Positions 1-16,500 of a stretch of 55,430 bases of DNA are shown here, one piece after another. A program made the position numbers and the translations under genes. Each line of letters begins with the position of its first letter. The first letter of the stretch is position 1. The DNA lies in NCBI GenBank assembly GCA_002843035.1, contig PHEV01000002.1, forward strand, positions 1 through 55,430, in the 5' to 3' direction. The notes below the pieces were generated by a model. That model searched no databases. It saw nothing but the letters and a program-made list of their open reading frames with translations, and was not told the DNA's origin. The stretch is from Actinobacteria bacterium HGW-Actinobacteria-5. Lineage in GTDB: Bacteria; Actinomycetota; Actinomycetes; Propionibacteriales; Propionibacteriaceae.

Positions 1-657
1 CGGCACTGCGCGCGTTCCGATCAGGTCCGCGCCGGCCAGCAGGAAGGCATAGGCGTTCTGCGGGCGCGGGAACTTCACGCCGGCAACCTTGAGCTTCACC
101 CCGGTGCCCTTGAGGGTCTCCTTCATGATCAGGAACTGGTCCATCGAGGGTCCCTCGAATTGCCCGGAAGCAGTCTTTGCGTAGTCGATGCCAGCCTCTG
201 CGATCAGCTTGCAGCCGGTGGCGATCTCCTCATTGGTCAGGAAGCATGTGTCCAGGATCACTTTGGTGATCGCATCGACGGCTTCCCTCCTGAACTGCCT
301 GAGCTCCTCTTCAACGTCGGCGATGCGACCACTCTTGAGAGCTCCGATATTCATCACGAGGTCGACCGCGGTGCAGCCCAGGGCCACTGCTTCCTCCACC
401 TCCCGCATCTTCACCGCGACGCTCGCCGACCCGAACGGAAAGGCCACTCCGGTGGCGACAAGAACATCGGTGCCCGCGAGTTCCTCCCGCACAACGGGAG
501 TCCAGTAGGTCGAGGAAGAGTAGAACGCCGCACAGTTGTAGGCGACAGCCTCACGACAACCGGAGCGAATCGACTCCTCCGCGCTGTCCTTGGGAAGGAC
601 GGAATGGTCGAAGCACTTGCCGAGTTCCCACGCGCCCACCTGGCTGAGGTCCACCAT
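1..657 (-). CDS. DeoC-family (deoxyribose-phosphate) aldolase, 3' end cut by window edge
   Basis: Class I aldolase of the DeoC family; these cleave 2-deoxyribose 5-phosphate or a related sugar phosphate through a lysine Schiff base in the cytoplasm. The frame is open from an ATG at 657 to the window edge (219 codons), so the C-terminus is missing. An AAGGGAGG box lies about 10 bases before the ATG. Visible motifs are FDHSVL (residues 16-21), VDLVMNIG (99-106, carrying the relay Asp100), YAKTASG (159-165, Schiff-base Lys161) and the phosphate-loop region LIGTR close to the cut end. It diverges from the HAD gene and faces away from the transketolase operon, whose promoter carries the same kind of palindrome as this gene's promoter. 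The true substrate is not certain; it need not be deoxyribose 5-phosphate. Confidence 0.88.
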   Translation of the reverse strand, partial: MVDLSQVGAWELGKCFDHSVLPKDSAEESIRSGCREAVAYNCAAFYSSSTYWTPVVREELAGTDVLVATGVAFPFGSASVAVKMREVEEAVALGCTAVDLVMNIGALKSGRIADVEEELRQFRREAVDAITKVILDTCFLTNEEIATGCKLIAEAGIDYAKTASGQFEGPSMDQFLIMKETLKGTGVKLKVAGVKFPRPQNAYAFLLAGADLIGTRAVP

Positions 658-732
658 CTGCTGAACACCTCCCTTGTCTCACGAACCCTCAACGTCGGTG
701 ACGTCAGCCTGCCGACCTGTACACGCTTTAAC

Positions 733-761
733 TATCTAGTATGTTCTTGTACATACAGCAA
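733..761 (-). promoter_or_regulatory. Promoter with embedded operator for the left-edge aldolase gene
   Basis: On the minus strand there is a -35 TTGCTG (761-756), a 17-base spacer and a -10 TAGATA (738-733). The spacer contains ATGTTCTTGTACAT (741-754), one mismatch from the perfect palindrome ATGTAC-NN-GTACAT found at 1939-1952. The shared element suggests that one regulator controls both transcripts. That regulator is not identified. Confidence 0.55.
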
Positions 762-873
762 CCTACTGACCCCTGCCGACCCGGTCAAGAGGCACCCACT
801 CCCGCTACCGCGATGGCGGAAACCACAACCACCACCCCCGGCCCTCGAGCCCTCCAGGCGTGCCTCAAGCTCC

Positions 874-890
874 AGTACAGACAGGTCTAT
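874..890 (+). promoter_or_regulatory. Possible GntR-type half operator upstream of the HAD gene
   Basis: AGTACAGACAGGTCTAT matches the stretch at 6727-6743 (AGTACAGACAGGTATAT) at 16 of 17 positions. The second site overlaps the promoter of the other DeoC-family gene. No clear -35 is visible here. It may be a binding site for the GntR regulator encoded at 5814. Confidence 0.4.
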
Positions 891-1027
891 GGTTGGAGGT
901 CAACCCGTGGCGTAAGTCCTTCGTCGCAGAGGCACCTCCCGTAGCCGAGCGACCTGGCCGCAGATCTCCGGCCAGACGTGGCCCAGCTGGCAGGACGACA
1001 CGCCACCAGCAGCGCGAGAGGAACAGC

Positions 1028-1873
1028 ATGCAGGACGACTCGAACTGGACCGAGCAGATGCACCGAATAGCGTCTGCGCGCCTGGTCGTCGCCGACATGG
1101 ACGGAACGCTGCTGACCGTAGCGGGACAATTGCCGGACGGCCTCTGGTCCACGCTGGCGCGATTGCGACGTGCGGGCATCGTGTTCGCGGTCGCCAGCGG
1201 ACGTCAGTATCCCACCCTCCGCAGCTACTTCGACCCCGCCCCGGAGGGAGTCGCCTACATCGCAGAGAACGGCGGCTACGCCGTACACGCGGGAGTCGAA
1301 ATCAGCGCTCGACCACTCCCCCTCCCGGTAGCGCGAAAGGCCGCGCTCAACGTTCGCACTGCCGCCCGCAGCCACGACATCGGCGCCGTGTGGTGCGCTC
1401 GGGACGTGGCCTATGCCGAGCGCAGGGACGCACCCTTCTTGCGGGAGGTGACCGCCTTCTATCGGAGCCTCGAACTCGTCGACGACCTCACCCGGATCAC
1501 AGATGAGGCCATCAAGATGGCCGTCTACGACTTCGGCGACGCCGAACGCGGCTCGGCCCGCCTGCTGCAGCCGCTGTCCTCGCCGGCACAACTGGTGGTC
1601 TCCACCCCGCACTGGCTGGACATCATGAACCCCGAAGCCAACAAGGGCGTCGCACTCCGCGATCTCCAGGCCGCACTCGGAGTAACCCCGGAGGAGACCA
1701 TCGTCTTCGGCGACTACCCCAACGATCTCGAACTGATGGAGGCAGCGACACACTCGTTCGCGATGGCCAACGCCCACCCCGAGGTTCTCCGACGCGCGCG
1801 CTACCTGGCTCCATCCAACGAGGACCGCGGCGTCCTGGTGGTACTGGACGCAGTGCTCGACACCATCTCCTGA
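1028..1873 (+). CDS. HAD-superfamily hydrolase, Cof/type IIB phosphatase
   Basis: Predicted cytoplasmic sugar-phosphate phosphatase of 281 residues. All four HAD motifs are visible: DMDGT (nucleophile Asp23 and Asp25), VASGR (Ser57), Lys206 in NKG, and GDYPND (228-233). The long segment between motifs II and III fits the type IIB (Cof/YbiV) cap. An ATG at 1028 preceded by GAGAGG is preferred over an upstream in-frame ATG that would add 56 low-complexity residues. It lies divergent from the left-edge aldolase and just upstream of the transaldolase/transketolase operon. A role in removing phosphate from an intermediate or dead-end product of that pathway is inferred from position alone. Confidence 0.85.
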   Translation: MQDDSNWTEQMHRIASARLVVADMDGTLLTVAGQLPDGLWSTLARLRRAGIVFAVASGRQYPTLRSYFDPAPEGVAYIAENGGYAVHAGVEISARPLPLPVARKAALNVRTAARSHDIGAVWCARDVAYAERRDAPFLREVTAFYRSLELVDDLTRITDEAIKMAVYDFGDAERGSARLLQPLSSPAQLVVSTPHWLDIMNPEANKGVALRDLQAALGVTPEETIVFGDYPNDLELMEAATHSFAMANAHPEVLRRARYLAPSNEDRGVLVVLDAVLDTIS

Positions 1874-1924
1874 GCCCCCGCGGATGAGGCGCCCTGTTGA
1901 CGAGTGGTGTCGATAGCCCTATCG

Positions 1925-1953
1925 TTGACTATGCTCGTATGTACAAGTACATT
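1925..1953 (+). promoter_or_regulatory. Promoter with perfect palindromic operator for the transaldolase/transketolase operon
   Basis: A -35 TTGACT (1925-1930), a 17-base spacer and a -10 TACATT (1948-1953) precede the gene starting at 2005. A perfect 6-2-6 palindrome, ATGTAC-AA-GTACAT (1939-1952), covers the -10, as expected for a repressor operator. A near copy sits in the promoter spacer of the left-edge aldolase. Confidence 0.65.
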
Positions 1954-2004
1954 CGAGCGGACGCGAAGATGACCCTGGCGTCCGGCCCGTGAAGGAGTTC
2001 AACG

Positions 2005-3369
2005 ATGATCACCGTCAACCAGCCCCGGAATGGAGACGCCGAACTGCGCATGCGCTACTCGGTGGGCAGCCTCGGGCTCACCCCCGCCCGCGGCCAGGAA
2101 GACGTCCTGCCGCGGATCGCGCACCTCCCGCTGGACCCGGAGGAATACGCCCTGCTCCGCGACCGCGCCATCTCGGTGGGCGGCAGCGACCGGTTCCACG
2201 ACGTGCTGAGCACCTTCCCGACACCGGCCGGCGAGACGCCACCCGGGTTCCGCGTGGAGACCCAACTGAACAGCGACGGGCTACTGGAGGCGGACCTGGT
2301 TCGCGACATCGGCTTCGGCCGCAACTCCGCCAGGCGTCCGACCAGGACGATCTTCTCGGCCGACTCGGCGAACCCCTACGAGGTCGCACCGGTGGCGGGC
2401 TTGCTGGGGAACCTGACCTGCAACCCAGGCATCGTCTACGACCTGTTCATCAACAACCCCGAGGCGAATGTGGGCCACAGGTTCAGCACTCTCGAGGAGG
2501 TCATGACCGAGCTGGGCCGCGTCCTGGGCCCGGGTTGCGATGTGAGCGTCGAGCTCGAGAACCCGTTCGACCCCGACTTCGACCACATCCTCGCCGAGAT
2601 CGAGCCCTACGAGAAGATCCTCTCCCCCTACCGCCTCGTGGTGAAGGTGCCGCACACGGGTCCGGTGAACGGCGAGAACGTGAGCGAGCTGCTGACCGGC
2701 TCGGGCCGGCTGAGCAGCTCCTACCTGAAGCCCGCCACCGAGGATGCGTTCCGGTCGCACAATCTCGCGCTGCGCCTGCGCGAGCACGGGTACCGGGTCA
2801 ACTACACGCTCATGTTCGAGCCCCACCAGGCCGCCCTCGCGCTACAGGCCCGTCCCTACTTCATCAACTCCTTCGTCCGGCACCGCCTGATGCAGACCGG
2901 CCGGATCGCCCAGCTGGTCTCCGCGTTCAGGCAGACCGGCGAGATCAGCCACCTCAAGGAGCTGCGCGCCTACCTGATCAGCACCGACCATCTCCCGGAG
3001 AACGCGAACACGGAGTTGGTCGAGGTTCTCCAGTACAGCGAGAACCTGATCAAGTACCGGCACTACGACGACGCCGAGGGCAGCGACGGCCTGGACACCC
3101 TCCGGCACGAGCTGAGGCTCCTCAAGCAGTGCAACCTGCCGGACACCCGGGTGATCGTCTGCAGCATGGAGGGGCCGCACAACTACCCCGACATCGACAA
3201 GCTCGCGACCGAACCCGAGTTCGCCGACGTGATCGACCGGCTGGTCATCACCGCGGAGCCGAGCTACCTGGCCCGCTTCACCTCGGCGAGCCACGTGGTG
3301 AGCTACCAGCGGCGGTTCATGGCTGCCGCGGCGACGGCCACTCGACCGGGAGTGAGGCTCAACGCATGA
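2005..3369 (+). CDS. Transaldolase-family protein with long N- and C-terminal extensions
   Basis: Predicted sugar-phosphate aldolase/transferase of 454 residues. The transaldolase barrel core spans about residues 115-295. It shows SADSAN (Asp120), TCNPG (138-142), an Asn that follows the family pattern, VELENPFD (Glu183), the Schiff-base lysine in VVKVP (Lys214), VNYTLMF (265-271) and INSFV (287-291). Standard transaldolases are about 220-390 residues. This one has about 110 extra residues before the core and 150 after it, which I do not recognise. An AAGGAG box precedes the ATG. The stop overlaps the next start as ATGA, so it is the first gene of a four-gene operon with the isomerase and split transketolase. 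The substrate is unknown. Confidence 0.75.
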   Translation: MITVNQPRNGDAELRMRYSVGSLGLTPARGQEDVLPRIAHLPLDPEEYALLRDRAISVGGSDRFHDVLSTFPTPAGETPPGFRVETQLNSDGLLEADLVRDIGFGRNSARRPTRTIFSADSANPYEVAPVAGLLGNLTCNPGIVYDLFINNPEANVGHRFSTLEEVMTELGRVLGPGCDVSVELENPFDPDFDHILAEIEPYEKILSPYRLVVKVPHTGPVNGENVSELLTGSGRLSSSYLKPATEDAFRSHNLALRLREHGYRVNYTLMFEPHQAALALQARPYFINSFVRHRLMQTGRIAQLVSAFRQTGEISHLKELRAYLISTDHLPENANTELVEVLQYSENLIKYRHYDDAEGSDGLDTLRHELRLLKQCNLPDTRVIVCSMEGPHNYPDIDKLATEPEFADVIDRLVITAEPSYLARFTSASHVVSYQRRFMAAAATATRPGVRLNA

Positions 3370-3806
3370 TTCTCGGTTTCGGCTCCGACCCGAACGCGAC
3401 GCAGTTGCGCCAGGAGCTGATGGCCCGCGCGTCCGCTCTCGGGCACGACGTGGTCGACTTCGGTTCGGACGACCCGATCTATGCCCACACCGCGATCGTC
3501 GTCGCCCAGGCGGTCGTGGCCGGCCGCCTCGACCGCGGCGTGCTGGTCTGCGGCACCGGAATCGGGGTCTCGATCGCGGCCAACAAGGTTCCCGGCGCGT
3601 ACTGCGCGCTGGTGTCCGATGTGTACCAGGCCCGGCGCGCACAGCTGAGCAACAACGCCAACCTGATCGCGATGGGCGCACAGGTCATCGGACCGGAGCT
3701 GGCGAAATGCCTCCTCGAGGAGTACCTCAAGGAGTCCTTCGACCCCGGCTCCCGAAGTGCGCCCAAGGTGGCGGCGATCACCGACTACGAGCGTGGGCGG
3801 GCCTGA
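3366..3806 (+). CDS. RpiB/LacAB-family sugar-phosphate isomerase
   Basis: A 146-residue isomerase of the ribose-5-phosphate isomerase B / LacAB family, which interconverts aldose and ketose phosphates. The family signature is clear: VCGTGIGVSIAANK (61-74, catalytic Cys62) and the YQARRAQLSNNAN stretch. The usual N-terminal GSDHAG is GSDPNA here (7-12), so a residue that often contacts the substrate differs. This suggests a substrate other than ribose 5-phosphate. Related actinobacterial proteins act on four-carbon sugar phosphates such as erythrulose 4-phosphate. The start overlaps the upstream stop (ATGA), and its own stop overlaps the next ATG by one base. Confidence 0.85.
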   Translation: MILGFGSDPNATQLRQELMARASALGHDVVDFGSDDPIYAHTAIVVAQAVVAGRLDRGVLVCGTGIGVSIAANKVPGAYCALVSDVYQARRAQLSNNANLIAMGAQVIGPELAKCLLEEYLKESFDPGSRSAPKVAAITDYERGRA

Positions 3807-4660
3807 TGTCCCCCAGCGTCCTCGAACTGGAGCTCGCCGCGAGCAGGGCGCGGCGGCTCGTGCTGCGGATGCTGGAGGCACATCCAGCCGGGCACGTCGG
3901 GGGCGCACTCTCCGCGATTGACCTGGTCGAGGCGATCTACCGCACGGCGATGCGCCTGACCGTGCCCGGGCTCGCAGCGCCCGACCGGGACAGGTTCCTG
4001 CTCTCGGCCGGGCACAAGGCGCTGGCCCAGTACGCGGTCCTGGCCGAAACCGGGCTGATCCCCACTGACGTCCTCGACAGCTACGGCAGGACCGGCTCGG
4101 CCGTGCCCGGGCATCCGGACATGCACAAGCTGCCCGGGGTCGAGGCCAACACCGGAGCCCTGGGGCACGGCCTCGCCATCGCCTGCGGGATGGCACTCGG
4201 AGCACGGCTGTCCGGCTTCGGCTCCCGGGTCTTCGTCGTGATGGGCGACGGCGAGCTTCCTGAGGGATCGAACTGGGAGGGCGCCGCGATCGCGGCCCAC
4301 CACCGGCTCGACCATCTGGCCGTGTTCGTGGACGCCAACGGGCTCCAGATCAGCGGTCCCACCAGGGAGGTCATGGGCATGGAATCGATCAGCGCGAAGT
4401 TCGACGCATTCGGCTGGGCCACCACGGAACTGGACGGCAACGACATGGCGAGCATCGTTCGGGTCCTGGACGAACTGCCCCTGACCCCGGGGCGGCCTTC
4501 GGCGATCATCGCGCGCACTGTAAAGGGACGGGGCATCCCCTCGATCGAGGGCACAGTCGCCTCCCACTACTGGAAGCCGAGCGCCGCCGAACTCGCCGCG
4601 GCGATCGAGTACTGCGAGGACACCACGAGGCGGCTCGAAGCTCTGGTGGCGGCGTCATGA
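3806..4660 (+). CDS. Transketolase, N-terminal (thiamine diphosphate-binding) subunit
   Basis: The 284-residue N-terminal half of a split transketolase, which binds the thiamine diphosphate pyrophosphate and transfers two-carbon ketol units. Visible features are GHVGGALS (usually GHPGGSLS) near residue 25, the ANTGALGHG glycine-rich segment and the metal/diphosphate motif GDGELPEGSNWE followed by the Asn of VDANGLQ. The ATG overlaps the upstream stop (TGATG) and the stop overlaps the C-subunit start (ATGA), so the halves are translated together. Split transketolases like this usually belong to special catabolic pathways (one example is apiose/apulose-phosphate breakdown) and not to the pentose phosphate core. 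Confidence 0.9.
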   Translation: MSPSVLELELAASRARRLVLRMLEAHPAGHVGGALSAIDLVEAIYRTAMRLTVPGLAAPDRDRFLLSAGHKALAQYAVLAETGLIPTDVLDSYGRTGSAVPGHPDMHKLPGVEANTGALGHGLAIACGMALGARLSGFGSRVFVVMGDGELPEGSNWEGAAIAAHHRLDHLAVFVDANGLQISGPTREVMGMESISAKFDAFGWATTELDGNDMASIVRVLDELPLTPGRPSAIIARTVKGRGIPSIEGTVASHYWKPSAAELAAAIEYCEDTTRRLEALVAAS

Positions 4661-5628
4661 CCGGCAACCTGCTGGACCCGCGGATCACCTTCGGCCAGGC
4701 GGTCGCCGACGCCGCGGCGCTCGACCCGAAGGTCGTTGTGCTGTCGGCCGACAGCGGAGGTTCGTCCGGCCTGGGCGGCTTCGCCGCGTCGCACCCGGAG
4801 CGGTACCTGGAGTTCGGGATCCAGGAACACGGCGTCACCGGTGTCGCGTCGGGACTGGCCACCTGCGGCTACATTCCCGTGTTCTGCGCGATCGCGCCCT
4901 TCGTCACCTGCCGGAACTTCGAGGCCTTCCGCAACGACCTGGGCTACATGCGCCAGAACGTGAAGGTCGTCGGCCGCAACGGCGGGTTCACCTACTCCGA
5001 CCTCGGGGCCACCCACCATTCGCTCGAGGACTACGCGCTGATGCGGATGATCCCTGGAGTCACCGTGCTCGCCCCTCAGGATCCCGCCGAGATCAGGGGC
5101 GCAGTCACGGCCATGCTGGCCCACGAGGGGCCGGTGTACATGCGCATCGGGAGCGAACCGCTGCCCGAGATCTTCCCGGACGACAGCTTCGTGATCGGAC
5201 GGGCGAAGCGACTGCGCAGCGGGAACGATCTCACGGTCGTCAGCACCGGCTACGTCACACCCCGGGTACTGGAGGCGGTCGACCAGGTTGGTGCTGAGGT
5301 CGACGTCGACCTGCTCGGCCTGGGCACGGTGTGGCCTCTGGACGCCGAAGCGATCCTGGACTCGGCGCTGCGCACCTCTCGCGTGCTCACCGTCGAGGAG
5401 CACTATCTCCCCGGTGGGCTGGGCAGCGCCGTGTGCGAGCTGCTCGCCGGCGTCCCGGGGGTGGTGGTGGACCGAGTGGCGGTACCACACGACTACGTGC
5501 CGAGCGGCCGCTACGACGAGCTCTCAGCCAGGTTCTCGCTGGACCCGGAAGGGATCGCCGCACGGATCAGGGCCTTCGCCGCATCGGGGGCCCGCAGTCG
5601 TCCGGTGGCTCCGGGGGTGAGCGGGTAA
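4657..5628 (+). CDS. Transketolase, C-terminal subunit
   Basis: The 323-residue C-terminal half of the split transketolase, with the pyrimidine-binding and C-terminal domains. FGIQEH holds the catalytic glutamate (Glu57) that activates the cofactor aminopyrimidine. The segment following it (VASGLATCGYIPVF) and the Rossmann-like end are typical of the family. It overlaps the N-subunit by four bases, and the two must pair to form the active site. It is the last gene of the operon; 185 bases without a clear hairpin separate it from the GntR gene. Confidence 0.9.
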   Translation: MTGNLLDPRITFGQAVADAAALDPKVVVLSADSGGSSGLGGFAASHPERYLEFGIQEHGVTGVASGLATCGYIPVFCAIAPFVTCRNFEAFRNDLGYMRQNVKVVGRNGGFTYSDLGATHHSLEDYALMRMIPGVTVLAPQDPAEIRGAVTAMLAHEGPVYMRIGSEPLPEIFPDDSFVIGRAKRLRSGNDLTVVSTGYVTPRVLEAVDQVGAEVDVDLLGLGTVWPLDAEAILDSALRTSRVLTVEEHYLPGGLGSAVCELLAGVPGVVVDRVAVPHDYVPSGRYDELSARFSLDPEGIAARIRAFAASGARSRPVAPGVSG

Positions 5629-5813
5629 CGGCCGTCCGCGAGCCCGGGAGCCGATGGCCGCCGGGCCCGCTTGCGCCGCCGGAGCGCACGGTGTCCGGTG
5701 GGGCTGGTCCACCTGAGTGCGCGCGTGGACCAGCCGCGTGCCTTTGCGCGGAGTTGCGCCCATCCCTTGCTAGGCTAGGCAGGCTTAGGCAGCCCTAGAG
5801 AGGAGGCGCGACC

Positions 5814-6545
5814 GTGGCTGAGCTCCAACGCGACTCGTCCGTGCCGCTGTATCAACAGCTTGAGGACGCGTTGCGGCAACGCATCCGCGCGGGCGAGTGG
5901 CAGCCAGGGGAACGCATCGCCTCCGAGAACGAACTCAACCGGGAGTACGGCCTGAGCCGCATGACCGCGCGCGGGGTGCTCACCAAACTGGTCAACGACG
6001 GCGTCCTGTTCCGGGTGCCCGGCAAGGGCACTTTCGTCTCCCCGACGAAGATCAGCACCATCTCGCCGGCCTACCGCGGGGTGCGCGAGCAACTCGAGGC
6101 CATGGGGTACGAGACCAGGACCGAGCTCATCCGGGTCGCCCAGGAGGCACCCACCCGGCGGGTTCGGGAACGGCTCAACCTCGCCGAGTCGGACGCGGTG
6201 TACGCCGTGCATCGGCTTCGTCTGGCCAGCGGCGAGCCGATCAGCCTGCACCGCTCCTACATTCCCGCGGCCCTCGCGCCCGGGCTGGAGGAGCAGGATC
6301 TGGTGAACGAGCAGCTCTGCGTCATTCTCGAGGGGCAGTACGGCCTGCGCATGAAGCGCGTCATCGAGTCCCTCGAAGTCGCCGCAGCCCAGGCCGAAGA
6401 GGCGAAGCGGCTCGGCGTCCCGCGTGGCGCTGCCCTGCTCCAGCTGGAGGATGTGATCAGCGCGCAGAACGGCACCACGTTCGAGTTCACCCGGATCGTC
6501 TTCCGGGGCGACAAGATCCGGCTCGACTTCGAGTACAAGCTGTAG
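5814..6545 (+). CDS. GntR-family regulator with UTRA domain (HutC subfamily)
   Basis: A 243-residue DNA-binding repressor. The winged helix-turn-helix spans about residues 8-77 (PLYQQLEDALRQRI, the RIASENELNREYGLSRMTA recognition region, and the wing VPGKGTFV). A UTRA ligand-binding domain follows from about 95 to 237, which in this family senses a sugar phosphate or small acid. The GTG start lies 7 bases after AGGAGG. It sits between the transketolase operon and the second aldolase gene. The palindrome at 6734-6747 (ACAG-N-TATA-N-CTGT) resembles HutC-type operators and covers the aldolase promoter, so that gene is its likely target. The ligand is unknown. Confidence 0.9.
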   Translation: MAELQRDSSVPLYQQLEDALRQRIRAGEWQPGERIASENELNREYGLSRMTARGVLTKLVNDGVLFRVPGKGTFVSPTKISTISPAYRGVREQLEAMGYETRTELIRVAQEAPTRRVRERLNLAESDAVYAVHRLRLASGEPISLHRSYIPAALAPGLEEQDLVNEQLCVILEGQYGLRMKRVIESLEVAAAQAEEAKRLGVPRGAALLQLEDVISAQNGTTFEFTRIVFRGDKIRLDFEYKL

Positions 6546-6715
6546 GGCTTCATCATGACCCGCTGACCCGACCAGGGCGCGGGTGCGTGCGCGACCCGGG
6601 ATGCGCCCCTCGCGGCGTCCCCTCACTACCGGCCTCATCCACGGCACGCGAATGCCGGCCGCCGCAACCAGACGGGACCGCGGGCTTCACGAGTACACCA
6701 CAGCGGTTCTGCGGG

Positions 6716-6747
6716 TTGCGCAACCTAGTACAGACAGGTATATCTGT
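6716..6747 (+). promoter_or_regulatory. Promoter and GntR-type operator of the second DeoC-family gene
   Basis: A -35 TTGCGC (6716-6721), a 17-base spacer and a -10 TATATC (6739-6744). The interrupted palindrome ACAGGTATATCTGT (6734-6747, matching its reverse complement at 12 of 14 positions) lies over the -10. Its GGTATA core is typical of HutC/UTRA regulator sites. Confidence 0.55.
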
Positions 6748-6789
6748 AGGCAGAACGGCATTCACGACGATGCACAGAGAGGTGCCACC

Positions 6790-7521
6790 ATGCCCCAGCC
6801 GATCACCCTCAGCCAACTGGATCTGTCCCGGGAGCACCTCGCCTCCCTGATGGACTTCTCCGTCCTCAATCCTGACGCCAGCAAGGCCGACATCGATCGC
6901 GGTATCGCGATCAGCAAGGAGTATCGGTTCAAGGGATTTCATACCAACCCCGGCTGGGCGCCCTACGTCGCCGACCAGCTCGAAGGCACCGGCATCGAGA
7001 CCGGCTGGGTGGTCGCATTCCCCTTCGGCTGCCTCTCCACCGCAGCCAAGGTCGCCGAGGCCCAGGAGGGCGCCCGCGTCCTCAACGGACGACCCTGGGT
7101 GATCGACATGGTCGCCAACCACGGCAAGCTCAAGAGCGGGGACTACGACGACTACCGGCGCGATATCGCCGAGGTCGTGAAGGCAGCCCATGACGGGGGC
7201 GCCGAGTGCAAGGCCATCCTCGAAGCCCAACTGCTCACCGACGACGAGCTCCGCGCAGCCGTCGAACTGGCCAGCGAGGCCGGCGTCGACTGGGTCAAGT
7301 CCTCCACCGGCCGGCACGGCGGACCGCAGTTCGCCCAGGTCAAGATCATGTGCGACACCGCGCCGGAGGGGGTCAAGGTCAAGATCGCCGGCACCGGCAG
7401 CTTCTGGACCCCGATGGTGGCGCTCGGCTGCCTCCTGCTCGGCGTCGAGCGCATCGGTACCCGCAGCGCGCCCTGGATCTGCGACGAGCTCTCCGGGGAT
7501 CTCGGCCGACTGCTCAAGTAG
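6790..7521 (+). CDS. DeoC/LacD-type class I aldolase
   Basis: A complete 243-residue aldolase of the DeoC superfamily. The likely Schiff-base lysine is Lys170 in DWVKSSTG, the conserved acid is Asp106 in VIDMVAN, and VKVKIAGTG (196-202 region) and RIGTRSAP complete the phosphate end. It starts at an ATG behind GAGAGG; an upstream in-frame start would read through the promoter. It is only distantly similar to the left-edge aldolase: motif spacing matches but most residues differ. With the transaldolase-like protein, the isomerase and the split transketolase it gives this locus three carbon-carbon lyase/transferase activities. The substrate is unknown. Confidence 0.85.
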   Translation: MPQPITLSQLDLSREHLASLMDFSVLNPDASKADIDRGIAISKEYRFKGFHTNPGWAPYVADQLEGTGIETGWVVAFPFGCLSTAAKVAEAQEGARVLNGRPWVIDMVANHGKLKSGDYDDYRRDIAEVVKAAHDGGAECKAILEAQLLTDDELRAAVELASEAGVDWVKSSTGRHGGPQFAQVKIMCDTAPEGVKVKIAGTGSFWTPMVALGCLLLGVERIGTRSAPWICDELSGDLGRLLK

Positions 7522-7631: not shown

Positions 7632-9278
7632 TCACGCGACGAGGCCGCGCCCCGGGATCGCGGCGAGCAGTTCCTGGGTGTAGGGGTCGACCGCGTTCTC
7701 GAAGATCTGTTCCGGCGTCCCGCTCTCGACGAAGCGGCCCTGGCTCATCACATGCACCTGGTCGGAGATCATTCGCACCACGGCGAGGTCGTGGCTGATG
7801 AACAGGTAGCTCAGACCGAGTTGCGACTGAAGGTCGGCGAGCAGTTCCAGGATCTGTGCCTGCACCAGGACGTCGAGAGCCGAGACGGCCTCGTCGAGGA
7901 CGACCAGGTCGGGCTTCAGCGCGAGCGCCCGGGCGATGGCCACCCGCTGTCGCTGCCCGCCGGACAGCTCGTGCGGGAGTCGGGTCGCGAAGTCCCGCGG
8001 CAGCGAGACCTGCTCCAGCAGGTCTCCCACCCGTGCGCGCCGCTCGGCCACGTCGCCCAGGCGATGCACTCGAAGCGGCTCGGCGATGCTCTGGCCGACC
8101 GAGTAACGCGGGTCGAGCGAGGAGTAGGGATTCTGGAACACCGGCTGGACCCTGCGCCGGAAGTCGAACATCTGCCGGCCACGCACGCCGGTCAGGTCGA
8201 CGCCGTCGAACCGGATCCGGCCGGCGGTCGGCTCGTCCAGGCCGAGCAGCAGGCTGGCCGTGGTCGACTTGCCCGAGCCGGACTCCCCCACGATCGAGAC
8301 CGTGGTACCGCGCTGAATGGAGAAGCTCACTCCGTCCACCGCCGTGAACGTGCGCGACCCCTGGGACGTGCGGGCGCGCAGCGGGAACTCCTTGACCAGT
8401 CCCTCGACCTCGACCAGAGGCGACGACTCCTTGGCGGCCGCGCTGTCCCTGACCACGGGCTCGCGACGGGTGGCCAGGCTCGGCGCCGCAGCGATCAGCT
8501 CCCTGGTGTAGTCGTGGTGAGGGTTCACCAGCACCCGAGCGGACGGGCCCTCCTCGACCACCCGGCCCTGGTACATGACCACGACCCGGTCCGCACGCTC
8601 CGCAGCCAGCGCGAGATCGTGGGTGATCAGGAAGACCGCGGTGCCGAGCTCGCGGGTCAACGAGCCGAGCTGGTCGAGCACTCGGCGCTGCACCGTCACG
8701 TCGAGCGCTGAGGTCGGCTCGTCGGCGATCAGCAGCCGGGGACCGCAGGCCAGGCCCATCGCGATCAGCGCGCGCTGGCGCATGCCGCCGGAGAACTCGT
8801 GAGGGTACTGCCGAGCCCGCTCCGCCGGCTGCGGGATGCCCACCATCTCGAGCAGCTCGCGGACGCGCTCCTGTGTGGCCCGGCCCCGCGTGCGGCCGTG
8901 CACCTCCAGCGCCTCGCCGATCTGCTCGCCCACCCGCATCAGCGGGTTCAGGTTCGACATCGGATCCTGGGGCACGAGCCCGATGCCCGCTCCCCGCAGG
9001 CCGATCATCTCGTGCTCACCGAGATCGGCGATCTCCCTGCCCTCGAAACGGATCGTTCCGGCGGTGATCACGGCGTTGTCGGGAAGCAGCCGATTGACCG
9101 CGGACGCGGTGGTGCTCTTGCCCGACCCCGACTCCCCGACCACCGCGACCGTCTCACCGGCGGCCACGTCGAGGCTGACGTCGATCACCGCGGGGACGAG
9201 CGTGGCCCCGGTCCGGAACGACACGCACAGGTCGCGGATCTGGAGCACCGGCTCAACCGAACTCGTCACGGTCACCAT
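7632..9278 (-). CDS. Oligopeptide-type ABC transporter, fused DppD-DppF ATPase
   Basis: A 548-residue protein with two ABC ATPase domains that powers the importer whose permeases and binding protein are encoded upstream. Domain 1: Walker A GESGSGKS (48-55), signature FSGGMRQR (162-169), Walker B LLIADEP (182-188). Domain 2: Walker A at 331-338, signature LSGGQRQR (438-445), Walker B LVVLDEA (458-464), where the usual DEP is DEA. It is the last gene of the operon. The ATG at 9278 touches its AGGAAGG box directly, so the GTG at 9275, which forms a GTGA overlap with the hydrolase stop, is an equally good start. Context points to cell-wall fragments as the cargo. Confidence 0.9.
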
Positions 9279-10342
9279 CCTTCCTGGCCGACAACAGCCA
9301 GCCCCACGGTCTCCACGACCGAATGCCACAAGTCCGCGGTCGCCGCGGGACGCGCGGCGAGCAGGCGACTGGAGAGCATCACCACGGCGATGCCGAACTC
9401 CGGCACGAAGCCCAACGCGCAGCCGGTGAAGCCCGGATGCCACAGCATCCGCCCGACCCGGCCGCCACGGGCCACCGGCTCGGTGCGCCATCCCGACGCC
9501 TGGCCGGCGTCCGGCCCGTCCCGGAAGATCGCCTCTCGCAGGTCGCCGCCCCACAGCTCGTCCGCCGCGGGGTCGGCCAGGGAAAGGGCGAGGGTGAGCA
9601 GGTCGTCCGCGGCGCCGAACAGTCCGGCGTGGCCGGCCACCCCGGCGAAGGCGTGGAACGCGTTGCCGTCGTTCGCCTCGCCCACGGTGAGCCCGTCCCG
9701 CCACTCGAAGGAGGGGTCGGCGAACAGCACTGGATAGGGCTCGCCGCTGCGCACCATCGTCGCCTCGACGCGATCGCCCACGCCACCGGCGGCCACCTCG
9801 GCGTCCACCGGTCCGAAGCCGATGCTGTCCAGCCCCAGCGGCCCTGCGACCAGCTCCGCCACCGCGTGCCGCAACCCCACCCCGGTGACCGCACCGATCA
9901 CCTCGCCGAGCAGGATGAACCCCAGATCGGAGTAGTGCCGCCCCTGGCCCGGCGGGTACCGCAGGGGCAGCCCGTCCAGTGCAGCCAGCGGCTCCGTCGC
10001 GGCCAGGTAGAGAGGTTGCCACTCCCACAGGCCGGCGCGGTGGTGGAGCAGGTCGCTCAGGGTCGGATCGCCGGGCCGCGCCCCCGGGAGGTAGCGGGAC
10101 AGTCGATCGGTCAGCTCGAGTTCGCCCAGGACCGCAAGCCGGTGCAGGGCACAGGTGGTTGCGACCACCTTGGTCACCGAGGCCAGGTCGAAGCGCGTCC
10201 GTTGGGTGACGGGCTCGCCGCCGGGCGTGCACACGCCGCCCGCGGCGATCCGGCGGCCCTCGGGGCCCGCCATCCCCACCACGGCACCCAGCGGCGCCGA
10301 CGGACCGGCCAGCAGCCGGTCCAGCGCCCCGGTGACGGCCAT
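9272..10342 (-). CDS. Serine hydrolase, beta-lactamase (class C-like) family
   Basis: A 356-residue penicillin-binding-fold hydrolase without a signal peptide, so probably cytoplasmic. Catalytic motifs are SVTK (Ser55/Lys58), YSD (137-139) and HPGFTG (302-307, in place of the usual K-T-G-type motif). The segment GVAGHAGLFG (about 234-243) is typical of beta-lactamase-like proteins that sit near muropeptide-recycling genes in other bacteria. The start overlaps the GNAT stop by one base (TGATG). Inferred role: trimming an ester or amide on imported muropeptides. A true beta-lactamase is less likely because of the missing signal peptide and the operon context. Confidence 0.78.
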   Translation of the reverse strand: MAVTGALDRLLAGPSAPLGAVVGMAGPEGRRIAAGGVCTPGGEPVTQRTRFDLASVTKVVATTCALHRLAVLGELELTDRLSRYLPGARPGDPTLSDLLHHRAGLWEWQPLYLAATEPLAALDGLPLRYPPGQGRHYSDLGFILLGEVIGAVTGVGLRHAVAELVAGPLGLDSIGFGPVDAEVAAGGVGDRVEATMVRSGEPYPVLFADPSFEWRDGLTVGEANDGNAFHAFAGVAGHAGLFGAADDLLTLALSLADPAADELWGGDLREAIFRDGPDAGQASGWRTEPVARGGRVGRMLWHPGFTGCALGFVPEFGIAVVMLSSRLLAARPAATADLWHSVVETVGLAVVGQEGW

Positions 10343-10845
10343 CACCCGGGTTCCCCTTCCCTGAGGTCCTTGCGCAGTCGCAGTTCCGGCTGCCCGAACT
10401 CGGGCTCGACCCGGGTGGCACCGTCGGGACGCCAGCCGCGGCTGCGGTAGAAGCCCACCGACGGGCCGTTCGCTGCGAACACCCACAGCGTCGCCGACGT
10501 CACCCGCTGTTGGACGAAGGCGTCCTCGGCGTGGTCGAGCAGCCTGGTACCGAGCCCGGAGCCCTGCGCGACCGGGGAGACGTACAGCGAGTGAACCTGG
10601 CCGGCGGCGCCAGAGACCTCCCAGCGGGTCAGTCCAAGGATCCGTTCGCCATCGTCGGCGACCACGGTGTGGCCGCGCGCAGAGCCGAGTGCCCGCGTCC
10701 ACATCTCGACGGCCCGCTCGTCGGAGATCGAGGCGACCAGGCTCTGCGGCAGGACCGCGGCGTAGCTGCCCCGCCAGCAGGCCAGGAAGACCTCGACCAC
10801 CGCGTCGAGATCGGCCGGAGTCGCCTCACGAAGCACGACGTTCAC
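10342..10845 (-). CDS. GNAT-family N-acetyltransferase
   Basis: A 167-residue acetyl-CoA-dependent acetyltransferase. The N-terminal LREATPADLDAVVEVF strand-helix, the central HSLYVSPVAQGSGLGTRLL (acetyl-CoA pyrophosphate loop, with Q-G-S-G-L-G fitting Q/RxxGxG/A) and the C-terminal NGPSVGFYRSRGW motif are all present. Translation probably begins at a GTG whose last bases overlap the AnmK stop (GTGA). The substrate cannot be read from the sequence. Given the operon, a peptide or amino sugar released from the wall is plausible. Confidence 0.85.
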   Translation of the reverse strand: MNVVLREATPADLDAVVEVFLACWRGSYAAVLPQSLVASISDERAVEMWTRALGSARGHTVVADDGERILGLTRWEVSGAAGQVHSLYVSPVAQGSGLGTRLLDHAEDAFVQQRVTSATLWVFAANGPSVGFYRSRGWRPDGATRVEPEFGQPELRLRKDLREGEPG

Positions 10846-12017
10846 GGCCGCGTCCGCTCGCCGGACAGTCGAAGGCCGGTGATCGCCGGTACCGGGTCCG
10901 GCAGAACGAGGGGCCCGCGACCGGGGACGATCGAACCCAGGATCCGCGGTTCGAGGGCACCGGTGCCGCCCAGGACCGTCCCCGGGACGCCGTGCAGGGT
11001 GCACCAGCCGATCAGCGCCATCAGGATGGCTTCCTTGGTGTCGGCCGGCATCCCCAGAACATCGGTGAGGACCAGTTCGACACCGGGCAGCAGGGCGCCC
11101 AGCCGATCCATCAGGAGCGGATTGCGGCAGCCGCCGCCGGAGACCGCCAGGTATTCCACCCCGGCGTCCCGGACGGCGTCCGCGACCGTCCGGGCGGTGA
11201 GCTCGACCAGCGTCGCCAGCAGATCGGCGTCGGACGGAGCGGACCCGGCCGCGTCCAGTTCCCGCTGCAGATAGGCCAGGTTGAACAGTTCCTTCCCTGT
11301 GCTCTTGGGCGGGACCTGCGCGTAGTAGGGCTCGGCGAGCAGTCGGGCCAGGAGCCGGTCGTCGATGGTCCCCTCGCGCGCGATCCGGGCGTCGGCGTCG
11401 TAGCCGCGCGGGTCCAGTCCGCGGTCCGCCACCACGGCGTCCATCAGGGCGTTCGCCGGCCCGATGTCCCAGGCCGACACCCCCTCCGCGGAGACGACCG
11501 TGAGGTTCGAGATGCCACCCAGGTTGAGCGCTCCGCTGACGCCGCTGCGCTGGTTGAGCAGGAGGAAGTCGACCAGCGAGGCCAGCGGTGCGCCCTGACC
11601 TCCGACGGTCAGGTCCCGCGCCCGGATGTCGGCGACCACGGGGACGCCCACCCGCTCGGCGATCCATGCGGGCTGGCCGAGCTGGAGCGTGCCCAGGGCG
11701 CGCCCGTCCTCGACCCAGTGGAAGACGGTCTGGCCGTGGGAGCACACCGCGTCGACCGCTCCGGCCTCACCGATGGCCCACTCGGCCGCGTCGGCGAAGG
11801 CCTGCCCGATCCGGGTGTCGATCTCGCAGACTCCGGCGAGGGTGGTGGGCCGCGGAGGCAGCATGTCCATCAGCAGGCGGCGCAACGACGGGTCGTAGGG
11901 ACGCGAGCCACTGAACCCGAGCGTGCCCTCCAGCACGCCTGCGCGCTGGGCGAAGTCGACCACGGCCACGTCGATGCCGTCGTGGGAGGTGCCCGAGATC
12001 ATGCCGAGGACGCGCAT
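10842..12017 (-). CDS. anmK: Anhydro-N-acetylmuramic acid kinase
   Basis: AnmK, 391 residues. It cleaves the 1,6-anhydro ring of anhydro-MurNAc and phosphorylates the sugar to MurNAc 6-phosphate, the substrate of MurQ. The family signature is visible: GMISGTSHDGIDVA (5-18), CSHGQTVFH (92-100), ADIRARDLTVGGQGAPL (129-145), ALNLGGISN (163-171) and the catalytic Asp184 in WDIGPAN. The ATG overlaps the murQ stop by one base (TGATG), fitting coupled translation of the two consecutive enzymes. Its length is normal for the family. Confidence 0.95.
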   Translation of the reverse strand: MRVLGMISGTSHDGIDVAVVDFAQRAGVLEGTLGFSGSRPYDPSLRRLLMDMLPPRPTTLAGVCEIDTRIGQAFADAAEWAIGEAGAVDAVCSHGQTVFHWVEDGRALGTLQLGQPAWIAERVGVPVVADIRARDLTVGGQGAPLASLVDFLLLNQRSGVSGALNLGGISNLTVVSAEGVSAWDIGPANALMDAVVADRGLDPRGYDADARIAREGTIDDRLLARLLAEPYYAQVPPKSTGKELFNLAYLQRELDAAGSAPSDADLLATLVELTARTVADAVRDAGVEYLAVSGGGCRNPLLMDRLGALLPGVELVLTDVLGMPADTKEAILMALIGWCTLHGVPGTVLGGTGALEPRILGSIVPGRGPLVLPDPVPAITGLRLSGERTRP

Positions 12018-12928
12018 CACGCCATCTCCAGGGCCGCCCGCAGGCGTCCGTCGGCGGCGGCGATCCGGGCGACGGCGGTGTCCGCGTCGGTCGGGGCGAT
12101 CAGCATCAGGGAGGCCACCTTCACGTCGTAATCCACTTCGGACAAGGCGGCGACCGCCTGCTCGCGCGACGCATCGGCGATCAGCTCGACCATCCGGATC
12201 GCCCGCTCCCGTAGCTTGTGGTTGGTTGCCTTGAGGTCGACCATGAGGTTGCCGTAGGTCTTGCCCAGACGGACCATCACGATCGTCGAGATCATGTTGA
12301 GCACCATCTTCTGGGCGGTCCCCGCCTTCAGCCGGGTGGAGCCGGAGATCACCTCTGGGCCGAGTTCGATCTCGATCGCCAGTTCGGCCGCAGCGCTCAG
12401 CCGGGTATGGCTGTTGCAGGAGAACCCGACCGTGAGCGCCCCCCGCTCGCGCGCCTGGGTGATGGCGCCGATCACGTACGGCGTGCGTCCGCTCGACGCG
12501 ATGCCGACGACGGTGTCGAGGGGCCCGATGCCGGCCGCCGCCACCGCACTCGCGCCTGCCTGCGCGTCGTCCTCTGCGCCCTCGGTGGGCGTGACGATGG
12601 CATTCGGGCCACCGGCCATGATCGCGAAGACCTGCTCCGGTGGGGAGCTGAACGTCGGCGGGCACTCGGACGCGTCCACGACGCCGATCCGCCCCGCCGT
12701 ACCGGCCCCGACGTAGACCAGCCGCCCTCCGTCCTGCATCCGGGCGGCCGCCGCCTCGATCACCGCGACGATGGCGGGCAGCGCGGCCCGGACGGCTCCG
12801 GCGACGGTGGCGTCCGCCCGGTTCATCAGGTCGGCGAGCTCCGCGACGGACATCGTGTCCAGCATGGCGTAGTCGGGGTTCACCGCCTCCGTGACCAGGT
12901 CGGCCAGATCCTCCTCGAGAGTGCTCAT
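12017..12928 (-). CDS. murQ: N-acetylmuramic acid 6-phosphate etherase
   Basis: MurQ, 303 residues, cytoplasmic. It removes D-lactate from MurNAc 6-phosphate to give GlcNAc 6-phosphate. SIS-fold motifs are clear: YVGAGTAGRIGVVDASECPP (72-91, catalytic Glu88), TEGAED (115-120, second catalytic acid Glu117), GIASSGRTPYV, and STRLKAGTAQKMVLN followed by LGKTYGNLMVD. The ATG overlaps the permease stop (ATGA). It links AnmK to the amino-sugar pool; no nagA/nagB or nagZ homologue is in the window. Confidence 0.96.
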   Translation of the reverse strand: MSTLEEDLADLVTEAVNPDYAMLDTMSVAELADLMNRADATVAGAVRAALPAIVAVIEAAAARMQDGGRLVYVGAGTAGRIGVVDASECPPTFSSPPEQVFAIMAGGPNAIVTPTEGAEDDAQAGASAVAAAGIGPLDTVVGIASSGRTPYVIGAITQARERGALTVGFSCNSHTRLSAAAELAIEIELGPEVISGSTRLKAGTAQKMVLNMISTIVMVRLGKTYGNLMVDLKATNHKLRERAIRMVELIADASREQAVAALSEVDYDVKVASLMLIAPTDADTAVARIAAADGRLRAALEMA

Positions 12929-13812
12929 TTCCTACCTCTGTTCCTGGGGTCGAGGGAGTCGCGGAGGCCATCGCCGAGCAGGTTCAGGCCGACGACGAAG
13001 AGAACGACGATGACGCCGGGGGCGACCATCGTCCAGGGCGCGATGTAGACCAGGGTGCGGGCCTCGTAGATCATCGAGCCGAGTGAGGGCGCCGGCGGCG
13101 GGGTGCCGAGACCCAGGAAGCTCAGTGATGCCTCCGTGAGCACCGCCCAGGACAGCGAGAGCGTGACCTGGACGATCAGGATCGAGGTGATGTTCGGCAG
13201 CACGTGGCGGAACATGATCGCGGCTCGCCGTTGCCCCGAACTCACCGCAGCCCGGACGAAGTCGATCTCGCGCAGCGACAGCACCGGGCCCCGCGTGACC
13301 CGGATGAAGATGGGGACGTAGACGATCGCGATCGCCACGGCGATGGTGAACCAGTTGCGGTCGAACACCGAGGCGAGGGAGAGCGCCAGCAGCAGCGGCG
13401 GGAAGGCGAACAACACGTTGGTGACCCCGCTGACCACCGCGTCCGAGACGCCGCGGAAGAAGCCGGCCGAGACTCCGGCGAGCGTGCCGACCACGGTGGC
13501 GAAGGCCACGGCGACCACGGCGATCAGCGCCGAACTGGCGACGCCGGCGGCCACCCGGGAGAACACGTCGCGTCCGAACTGGTCGGTGCCGAACCAGTGC
13601 GCGGCGGACGGCGGCAGCAGCCTCTGTTGTGGGGCCTGGGCGAGGGGGTCGTAGGGCAGCAGGCCGAAGGCGGCGAGCACGCACAGGATCGCGAGCAGGC
13701 CGACCAGGACGAGCCCGGCCACACCGCTGCGGCTCTTCAGCAGCAGCCGCAGGCGCTGCCCGGACTGGACGCCGGCGAGGCTGGCCGGGGCGGATTCGGA
13801 GATCTCGGTCAT
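12925..13812 (-). CDS. Oligopeptide-type ABC transporter permease (DppC-like)
   Basis: A 295-residue inner-membrane permease of the binding-protein-dependent (OppC/DppC) class. A first helix at about 29-51 is followed by the OppC hallmark FGTDQFGRDVFSRV and five further hydrophobic segments. The EAA loop, which docks to the ATPase, lies around IDFVRAAVSSGQRRAAIMFRHVLPN. It overlaps dppB upstream (ATGA) and murQ downstream (ATGA). It forms the membrane channel with the DppB-like protein. Confidence 0.92.
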   Translation of the reverse strand: MTEISESAPASLAGVQSGQRLRLLLKSRSGVAGLVLVGLLAILCVLAAFGLLPYDPLAQAPQQRLLPPSAAHWFGTDQFGRDVFSRVAAGVASSALIAVVAVAFATVVGTLAGVSAGFFRGVSDAVVSGVTNVLFAFPPLLLALSLASVFDRNWFTIAVAIAIVYVPIFIRVTRGPVLSLREIDFVRAAVSSGQRRAAIMFRHVLPNITSILIVQVTLSLSWAVLTEASLSFLGLGTPPPAPSLGSMIYEARTLVYIAPWTMVAPGVIVVLFVVGLNLLGDGLRDSLDPRNRGRK

Positions 13813-14786
13813 TCGGCACGCACCCGTGGGTCGATGATCCGGTACAGCAGGTCGGTGAGCAGGTTGACCACCACGAACGCGAGCGCGATCAGCAGCACGG
13901 TGCTCTGTACCAGCGCGTACTCCTTCTGCTGGATGCCGAGCAGCACCTGCCGGCCGATCCCGGGCAGGGAGAAGATCTGTTCGACCACGACCGCGCCGCC
14001 CAGCAGGTAGCCGAACTGGAGGCCGGTCATGGTGACGATGGGGACCAGCGCGTTCTTGAGCACGTGGCGGACCTGCAGCCGCCTCGGGCCGACGCCTTTC
14101 GCCCGCGCGGTCCGGATGAAGTCCTGACCCCGCACCTCGAGCACGGCGGTGCGGGTGGTGCGCATGATGGGTGCCGCGATGCCGAATCCCAGCACCAGGG
14201 ACGGCAGCAGCATCTGCTGGAGGTTGAGCAGCGGATCCTCGCTGAAGTAGGCGAAAGCCTGCCCGTTGGGGTTGAACCGGACCGTCGCCGACAGGATCGC
14301 CAGCAGGGCCGTGGCCAGCAGGAAGGACGGGATCGAGAGCCCCATCAGGCCCACCGCCTGGCCGAACGCGTCCCGCGGCGAATCCGGACGGGACGCCGAG
14401 AGCATGCCCAGCGGGATGCCGATCAGGAGGGCGAGCACGATCGAGAAGACCGCGAGTTCGAGCGTGACCGGGAGCGACTGCGCGGTCAACTCCAGGACGC
14501 TCTGCTGGGCGCGGGAGGAGAAGCCGAGGTTCCCGGTGAAGATGTTGCCGAGCCAGCTGAAGAACTGGGTGACCAGGGGCTTGTCCAGGCCGTAGTAGGC
14601 CTCGAGCGCAGCCTGCTGGGCCGGGGTCAGCGCAGCGGCCTCGGTGCCCAGACCCGCGGTGATCTGGTTCCCGGGGATGGCCCGCAGCATGACGAAGACG
14701 AACACGGCGACGCCGAGCAACGTCCCCAGCGCGGAGATGATCGGGCGCAGCACGCGGTGGGACGCGACAGCTCTGACAAGGTTCAT
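13809..14786 (-). CDS. Oligopeptide-type ABC transporter permease (DppB-like)
   Basis: A 325-residue permease of the OppB/DppB class. It has an N-terminal helix (about 12-32), the LGLDKP-like segment AYYGLDKPLVTQFF before a periplasm-side loop, and five more membrane spans. The EAA loop is at FIRTARAKGVGPRRLQVRHVLKN. It follows the binding-protein gene after 57 bases that contain a perfect 13-bp hairpin, which probably lowers permease expression relative to the binding protein. Confidence 0.92.
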   Translation of the reverse strand: MNLVRAVASHRVLRPIISALGTLLGVAVFVFVMLRAIPGNQITAGLGTEAAALTPAQQAALEAYYGLDKPLVTQFFSWLGNIFTGNLGFSSRAQQSVLELTAQSLPVTLELAVFSIVLALLIGIPLGMLSASRPDSPRDAFGQAVGLMGLSIPSFLLATALLAILSATVRFNPNGQAFAYFSEDPLLNLQQMLLPSLVLGFGIAAPIMRTTRTAVLEVRGQDFIRTARAKGVGPRRLQVRHVLKNALVPIVTMTGLQFGYLLGGAVVVEQIFSLPGIGRQVLLGIQQKEYALVQSTVLLIALAFVVVNLLTDLLYRIIDPRVRAE

Positions 14787-14802
14787 GATGAATAGTGCAC
14801 CG

Positions 14803-14834: not shown

Positions 14835-14843
14835 TCGCGCTGA

Positions 14844-16409: not shown

Positions 16410-16472
16410 GGGCAAACTCCTCAGAACAAGGCGATCCTGACTGCGGCATCGGGAGCGCCCGGTGTTGTCGAT

Positions 16473-16485: not shown

Positions 16486-16500
16486 GCGATTGGCTAGGAT

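Follow-up and report, generated by a model that had tools for sequence, protein, structure and literature searches.

The left end of a 55,430-nucleotide stretch of DNA from Actinobacteria bacterium HGW-Actinobacteria-5 (family Propionibacteriaceae; assembly GCA_002843035.1, contig PHEV01000002.1; the whole stretch is hereafter the window) carries genes for two DeoC-type aldolases, an RpiB-type isomerase, a split transketolase and a divergent transaldolase-fold protein designated TAL*. Our tentative reading, which we put somewhat short of an even chance, is that this end is the right half of a catabolic regulon under GntR control extending leftward onto two further contigs, C282 and C49, in which a kinase and deoxyribose-phosphate aldolase (DERA)-type enzymes would split a small sugar or polyol, after which the isomerase, the transketolase and TAL* would recycle the resulting tetrose phosphate. 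The window is the entire contig C199 of an assembly with 295 contigs (completeness 98.87%, contamination 3.6%). An exact overlap of 99 bp joins its left end to the right end of C282, and a second exact overlap of equal length joins the other end of C282 to the right end of C49. Each overlap stretch was found complete in its two contigs only, with one partial match of 26 bases elsewhere for the stretch shared by the window and C282. Genes were called by composition scoring; calling by longest open reading frame was dropped since it chose antisense frames in high-GC DNA. The composition-scored calls missed or cut TAL* in L018, L046, L048, L051 and L058 and the RpiB start in L043. The features at the left end of the window are as follows.

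1 to 657, minus strand: DeoC1, alpha type (KFPRPQN motif); TIGR00126, 132.7 bits; 219 residues in the window, truncated by the contig edge
741 to 753, minus strand: operator-like site upstream of DeoC1; one mismatch to a pattern drawn by eye
1028 to 1873, plus strand: Cof-type HAD phosphatase; PF08282, 150.3; TIGR00099, 143.2 bits (cut-off 137)
1940 to 1952, plus strand: operator-like site upstream of TAL*; exact pattern match
2005 to 3369, plus strand: TAL*, divergent transaldolase-fold protein of 454 residues; PF00923, 25.3 bits (below the cut-off of 27)
3366 to 3806, plus strand: RpiB-family isomerase with GSDPNA at residues 6-11; PF02502, 139.6
3806 to 4660, plus strand: transketolase N-terminal subunit (TktN); PF00456, 157.4 bits
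4657 to 5628, plus strand: transketolase C-terminal subunit (TktC); PF02779, 118.9, and PF02780, 79.5 bits
5814 to 6545, plus strand: GntR/UTRA regulator; PF07702, 124.4, and PF00392, 67.2 bits
6731 to 6743, plus strand: weak operator-like site upstream of DeoC2; two mismatches
6790 to 7521, plus strand: DeoC2, gamma type (GTGSFW motif); TIGR00126, 124.4 bits; no Pfam match at E up to 1

The N-terminal, pyrimidine-binding and C-terminal domains of the transketolase all scored above cut-off, distributed over two adjacent genes. Since positions 2005-5628 hold four overlapping or abutting genes and the same set recurs in other genomes, the gene set is not attributed to chance. Beyond the end of DeoC1 (22 more residues and the stop codon), C282 encodes DeoC3, an FGGY-type kinase (PF00370, 158.0; PF02782, 123.4 bits), a class II aldolase (PF01116, 255.3; 82% identical to its counterpart in L005), a HAD phosphatase, an opposed HAD protein resembling phosphoglycolate phosphatase (158.9, cut-off 225) and the first part of DeoC4, whose remainder is on C49. 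Past DeoC4, C49 carries EutP-like and EutS-like genes, an oxidoreductase, an MFS transporter and a GH2-family protein. The EutS-like (98.2 bits, cut-off 123) and EutP-like (136.6, cut-off 138.35) genes converge on DeoC4 (L102, 17901-18784) and both fall just below cut-off; no relative of either was found outside C49 among the loci examined. A further set, SDR-DeoC-FGGY-Cof HAD, is located on contig C112, and the genome holds at least five DeoC-type genes, four of them in the C49-C282-window region. These results confirm the components named in an earlier sequence-only reading (two DeoC proteins, a transaldolase-like protein, an isomerase with GSDPNA and a split transketolase), as judged by Pfam and TIGR scores and the fold of TAL*, and they enlarge the locus by the Cof-type HAD and GntR/UTRA genes in the window and by the FGGY kinase, two DeoCs, class II aldolase and HAD phosphatases to the left. 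That reading had also supposed that a kinase, dehydrogenase or transporter may lie leftward; the kinase was found on the abutting contig, while neither a dehydrogenase nor a certain transporter was seen.

TAL* is confidently assigned a transaldolase fold, an assignment that is weak by sequence and clear by the predicted structure. The AlphaFold2 model, built with 48 sequences, had a predicted local distance difference test score (pLDDT) of 90.8, and its best match among solved structures was the Thermoplasma transaldolase (Z 22.2, 215 residues aligned, 2.4 A), followed by sulfofructose transaldolase and FSA at Z 20-21. Comparison with canonical families by hhalign gave probabilities of just 6-8% with partial coverage, and the fold claim rests on structure comparison. 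Asp120, Asn140, Glu183, Lys214, Thr268 and Phe290 are invariant in all 48 sequences. In the low-probability hhalign alignment Glu183 is paired with Gln in FSA-type enzymes and with Glu in transaldolase-type ones, with Lys214 likewise placed, and Phe290 falls opposite the FSA Tyr only if the weak alignment is extended by three columns. Because of the residue type of Glu183 and Phe290, the alignments point to a transaldolase-type enzyme (Lys with Glu and Phe) rather than an aldolase releasing free dihydroxyacetone (DHA), for which Gln and Tyr are typical. Residue 389, aligned by eye with the Arg of the canonical ASFRN motif, is acidic in 47 of 48 sequences. Release of free DHA in the manner of FSA had been considered on account of DhaKL neighbours at other loci and was rejected, as the residue type lends it no support; the DhaKL neighbours are left unexplained. 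The genome of L005 encodes a second TAL* (L135, on contig C12 of G140; 53%) near class II aldolase, HAD, DhaL and DhaK genes.

A genome-contig search found relatives of TAL* at 63 loci; the phyla represented are Actinomycetota, Bacillota, Spirochaetota, Synergistota and Chloroflexota. Within the family, 22 of 198 genomes have TAL*, and a comparison with plasmid records (query P0002) gave no match. No canonical transaldolase was apparent in 9 of the 22 family genomes with TAL* against 25 of the 176 without it (Fisher P 0.0045, or 0.030 with G197 counted the other way). PF00923 scored above cut-off in 172 of the 198 genomes, eight of which appear to hold only TAL*, on the assumption that their single weak PF00923 match, whose position was unseen, is TAL*; G197 has no match, and some of the genomes are incomplete. 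Thus TAL* may substitute for the canonical enzyme in some relatives. The two are not simply redundant, because the source genome also has a canonical transaldolase elsewhere and L044 has a gene read as canonical transaldolase directly upstream of TAL*.

The isomerase probably acts on a tetrose phosphate, as judged from its residues and model scores. The His of solved RpiB structures (3s5p, 3he8) is replaced by Ser in 11 of 11 cluster isomerases, and Ser is also present in 5ifz and 3qd5. In RpiB this His serves in opening the ring of the sugar, and a tetrose-4-phosphate has no such ring to open. The tetrose-phosphate assignment rests on this replacement together with the best NCBIfam model, D-erythrulose-4-phosphate isomerase, which is itself not passed (145.1 bits, far below the cut-off of 240). 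The RpiB equivalog models are also missed (RPI_actino, 122.8 against 168.2; rpiB, 97.7 against 138.65), and the protein exceeds the cut-off of the PRK05571 subfamily model (144.2, cut-off 135). Among ten cluster isomerases with a called start, the motif reads G[SC]DPNA in five and GCDQNA in one; it is also present in L145 and L155.

The five DeoC-type proteins of the source genome exceed the TIGR00126 equivalog cut-off of 117.3, with 132.7, 124.4, 146.3, 133.7 and 147.6 bits. Asp and both Lys are retained in all 21 aligned cluster-type DeoCs, and in all 21 the phosphate motif is replaced by a KFPRPQN-like (alpha), SGVPR[QT]F (beta) or AGTG[SAG]FW (gamma) sequence and an Arg follows G[TS]. In 13 canonical controls, being those that a pattern recovered from 29 loci, GGVR, GGIR or GGVK is intact. 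A search of 394 genomes of the class with DeoC query P0007 matched 34 genomes (E up to 1e-20). Outside the source genome the best matches, in G466 and G529, proved canonical and were used as controls; they keep GGVR and lie beside genes named by eye as phosphomannomutase-, purine-nucleoside-phosphorylase- and adenosine-deaminase-like. The window DeoCs have neither the GGVR nor these nucleoside-type neighbours. An FGGY motif was present in the same piece for 22 of 30 pieces with a cluster-type DeoC, a count from which short and duplicate loci had been excluded and in which DeoC1 figures twice (window and L099). Of the remaining eight pieces, two (L100 and L150) proved to have an FGGY gene on reading or by BLAST, two (the window and L102) have theirs on C282, and L154 and L155 break off within DeoC.

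A survey of the neighbourhoods of TAL*-like proteins showed that the cluster genes recur together. In Actinotalea sp. M2MS4P-6 (L006) ten stand in a row: GntR-DeoC-DeoC-FGGY-aldolase-HAD-TAL*-RpiB-TktN-TktC. Genes were clustered over 75 pieces (63 and a further 8 TAL* loci, C282, C112, C49 and the first 8 kb of the window). Class II aldolase was present in 15 pieces, FGGY and DeoC in 14 each, GntR, RpiB, TktC and HAD in 11 each, TktN in 10, DhaK in 9, EutH and choline-kinase-like genes in 8 each, and DapA-like and DhaL genes in 7 each. Related runs are found in Propionibacteriaceae genomes in which TAL* is located elsewhere: TktN-TktC-DeoC-HAD-FGGY in L145 and L146 (with RpiB ahead of it in L145), RpiB-TktN-TktC-DeoC-HAD in L149 with FGGY after further genes, and RpiB-TktN-TktC-DeoC up to the contig end in L155. 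Relatives of DeoC1 (E up to 1e-45) occur in 12 of the 198 family genomes and TAL* in 22, with both in 10 where 1.3 were expected; the Fisher P of 1.9e-9 is too strong since the genomes are related. The twelve span six genera, and one of them (G057) is of beta type by motif. On a tree of 48 TAL* sequences, 21 of them in no context group, the Rpi/Tkt context required 4 changes (shuffled mean 7.7; 3 of 500 shuffles as low), EutH/ChoK 1 and DhaKL 6 (118 of 500 shuffles as low). Side enzymes for small aldehydes were also encountered, namely a lactaldehyde reductase in L037, a glycerol-dehydrogenase-type gene in L145 and an S-(hydroxymethyl)mycothiol dehydrogenase in L053.

Other contexts of these genes were observed. 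In L051, L054-L056 and L058-L061 (Mycobacteriaceae, Nocardioides, Tetrasphaera) TAL* is last after class II aldolase, HAD and choline-kinase-like genes, often with EutH (588.1 bits in L055, cut-off 575), an amino-alcohol-like context. In L145 (12326-18198) and L157, DeoC-HAD-FGGY is adjoined by aldo-keto reductase, glycerol-dehydrogenase-type, DhaL, DhaK, LsrF-model and DUF1097 genes and a protein of 90-91 residues without a family. RpiB-TktN-TktC and TAL* stand alongside DapA-like and KDG-kinase-like genes in L010, L015, L043 and L063, a differing context that appears sugar-acid-like.

The operator-like sites are candidate operators of the GntR regulon. The pattern WRTACARGTAYAK, drawn by eye from cluster sites, matches exactly upstream of TAL* (and with two mismatches on the opposite strand), with one mismatch upstream of DeoC1 and with two upstream of DeoC2. 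One other match is present in the 55 kb window, and five matches were reached in 2 of 100 shuffles. C282 has two exact matches upstream of DeoC4 (start at 87) and four matches overall, a number reached in 0 of 200 shuffles; L102 and L100 have two 2-mismatch matches apiece.

From these genes we infer the following route. An imported small sugar or polyol would be phosphorylated by the FGGY kinase of C282, and the DERA-type class I aldolases, four in the region, would cleave the product, giving a two-carbon aldehyde together with a tetrose (or triose) phosphate. Erythrose-4-phosphate and erythrulose-4-phosphate would be interconverted by the RpiB-type enzyme, with the split transketolase and TAL* feeding tetrose phosphate back into central metabolism. 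A second drain, of the sedoheptulose-bisphosphate (SBP) type, may be formed by the class II aldolase and HAD phosphatase. The core genes fit together on the assumption that tetrose phosphate is produced, and a 2-deoxyhexose-like substrate, giving acetaldehyde and a tetrose phosphate, would employ all parts. In the synthetic EuMP cycle, according to the passages cited, erythrose-4-phosphate is drained via a transaldolase or SBP route (PMC10733421). We consider doubtful the bolder proposal of a new pathway, in which re-tooled DERAs would cleave a sugar phosphate larger than deoxyribose-5-phosphate to a two-carbon aldehyde and tetrose-4-phosphate, recycled by a dedicated tetrose isomerase, the split transketolase and an unrecognised transaldolase subfamily.

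Several observations weigh against the proposed regulon and route. TAL* lacks a conserved partner at many loci, and the presence of DhaKL, EutH, DapA-like and LsrF genes nearby at other loci points to varied substrates. Neither a dehydrogenase nor a certain transporter was seen in the region, the MFS gene of C49 sitting four genes past DeoC4. No FGGY accompanies the cluster-type DeoC in L147 (19 kb) or L064 (6.7 kb), both real exceptions. The operator pattern derives from the very sites that it matches, which makes the matches support and not a test. Ordinary chemistry is favoured by the DeoCs, all five of which score above the cut-off of the deoxyribose-phosphate aldolase model.

In line with this last result, the DeoCs could be genuine deoxyribose-phosphate aldolases, working with accessory enzymes in a variant of the pathway of the sugar phosphate utilisation (SPU) microcompartment loci. 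The SPU loci have pfam01791 and pfam02502 in common with the cluster, and the passages cited propose that they degrade DNA-derived sugars (PMC8217296, PMC4207490); the EutS-like and EutP-like genes adjoin DeoC4. However, those same passages name no FGGY kinase, transketolase or transaldolase, and the word transketolase is absent from both papers; a crude pattern revealed no other shell-like gene in the loci examined, a search not extended genome-wide; the phosphate motif of the DeoCs is replaced; and the isomerase lacks the RpiB His. We regard this reading as fairly improbable. An ordinary ribose, deoxyribonucleoside or pentose-phosphate cluster of diverged but standard enzymes would account for the membership of all genes in known families, RpiB, transketolase and transaldolase being the non-oxidative pentose-phosphate enzymes. 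We judge it very unlikely, given the canonical transaldolase elsewhere in the genome, four DeoC paralogues with replaced motifs, and a cluster in which no nucleoside phosphorylase, phosphomutase or ribokinase was recognised. The sequence-only claim that no standard pentose-phosphate or deoxyribose operon is present is supported by DeoC context and the GGVR motif, in which the control genomes differ, and the equivalog scores would still fit an ordinary DeoC reaction.

Catabolism of a tetritol or tetrulose (erythritol, threitol or erythrulose) is also fairly improbable. The substrate would be phosphorylated by the FGGY, DhaKL or choline-kinase-like enzyme, and RpiB would supply transketolase and TAL* with erythrose-4-phosphate; erythrulose-1-phosphate may be cleaved by the class II aldolase to dihydroxyacetone phosphate and formaldehyde. 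The best NCBIfam model of the isomerase, the adjacency of DhaKL to TAL* at several loci, the mycothiol dehydrogenase adjoining TAL* in L053 (639.2 bits, cut-off 512.9), a glycerol-1-phosphate-dehydrogenase-like gene with RpiB and FGGY in L044, and the naming of Propionibacterium pentosaceum as a source of erythrulose-1-phosphate aldolase in the cited part of PMC10733421 are all consistent with it, but four DeoC paralogues are left without a role, no polyol dehydrogenase was recognised among the cluster genes of C199 and C282, and the isomerase score is well under the equivalog cut-off. A sulfonated-sugar pathway, as the sequence-only reading had allowed, would have transketolase, an RpiB-family isomerase and transaldolase cut a 6-sulfo-ketose, and these are the enzyme kinds of the sulfo-TK and sulfo-TAL pathways (PMC11659671, in the portion cited). 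Iron-type (PF00465-like) reductases in L037, L065 and L066 and TRAP-type transporter genes seen by eye near L029 would fit. This reading fits the known routes poorly and is extremely unlikely: PF02952, the SqvD-family isomerase, had 0 matches in the assembly (control genomes matched in 3 of 14), no sulfoquinovosidase or sulfonate gene was recognised by eye, and the reductase of L037 passes as lactaldehyde reductase (647.3, cut-off 537) while falling far short of the sulfoacetaldehyde model (219.2, cut-off 700). Degradation of autoinducer-2 (Lsr) was rejected separately, with 0 matches to LsrF (NF006081) in the assembly, a model of uncertain sensitivity since no control genome scored above cut-off, and 202.0 bits for the C282 FGGY kinase against 528 for the LsrK model; an LsrF match (389.7 bits, cut-off 297) does lie beside DeoC and FGGY genes in L145.

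The remainder of the window holds other systems. Positions 7632-17492, with a peptide-type ABC importer and AnmK-like, MurQ-like and RpiR-like genes recognised by eye, look like muramic-acid recycling unrelated to the sugar-phosphate cluster. An island at 23633-40190 carries a type IV restriction enzyme (955.7 bits), a type II restriction-like gene, a DarG-like protein and, by eye, an integrase-like gene. PTS permease-like and GH1-like genes, also named by eye, at 45222-48530 are probably a beta-glucoside operon.

The gene set recurs without an assigned substrate, and relatives of TAL* are spread over several phyla. The combination was not found described, nor was anything found on an apulose (branched-sugar) transketolase, in the open-licence PubMed Central literature, a restriction that makes both absences weak; four papers there were listed with three of four terms for the combination. 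If the proposed regulon is real, the new transaldolase subfamily and the DERA variants with altered phosphate sites would be useful for carbon-carbon bond chemistry, and both the sugar consumed by these bacteria and the replacement of the standard transaldolase by TAL* would become directly testable.

By analogy, the nearest precedent is the sulfo-TK pathway, in which, as the cited passages describe, an isomerase and transketolase work on a substituted tetrose (PMC9594981, PMC11659671). The bifurcated sulfo-TK/sulfo-TAL pathway (SqwGH, SqwI, SftT) likewise combines a two-subunit transketolase, an RpiB-family tetrose isomerase and a transaldolase in one cluster, whereas the FGGY kinase, several DeoCs and class II aldolase are found here and the SqvD-type isomerase and sulfonate genes there; the solved sulfofructose transaldolase is ~220 residues long, and TAL* is a divergent protein of 454. 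The SPU loci share the pairing of a DeoC-type aldolase (pfam01791) with an RpiB-type isomerase (pfam02502) in the portions cited (PMC8217296, PMC4207490), but here the EutS-like gene of C49 is the only shell-like gene seen in the loci examined, and FGGY, transketolase and TAL* are extra. In the tetritol and erythrulose pathways (LerK, LerI, DerI) and the EuMP cycle, as far as the cited part of PMC10733421 describes them, a tetrose-phosphate isomerase also feeds transketolase and transaldolase, whereas no LerI or polyol dehydrogenase was recognised here and the DeoC paralogues are additional. The DeoCs resemble canonical DeoC in passing TIGR00126 and in keeping Asp and both Lys, and differ from it in gene context and in the exchange of the GGVR/GASS-type phosphate motif for KFPRPQN, GVPR[QT]F or GTG[SAG]FW plus G[TS]R. 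Finally, TAL* resembles the transaldolase family PF00923 in its fold (Z 22.2 over 215 residues), its transaldolase-type Glu and Phe and its putative Schiff-base Lys, and departs from it in ~110 extra N-terminal residues, further insertions and a score below the Pfam cut-off.

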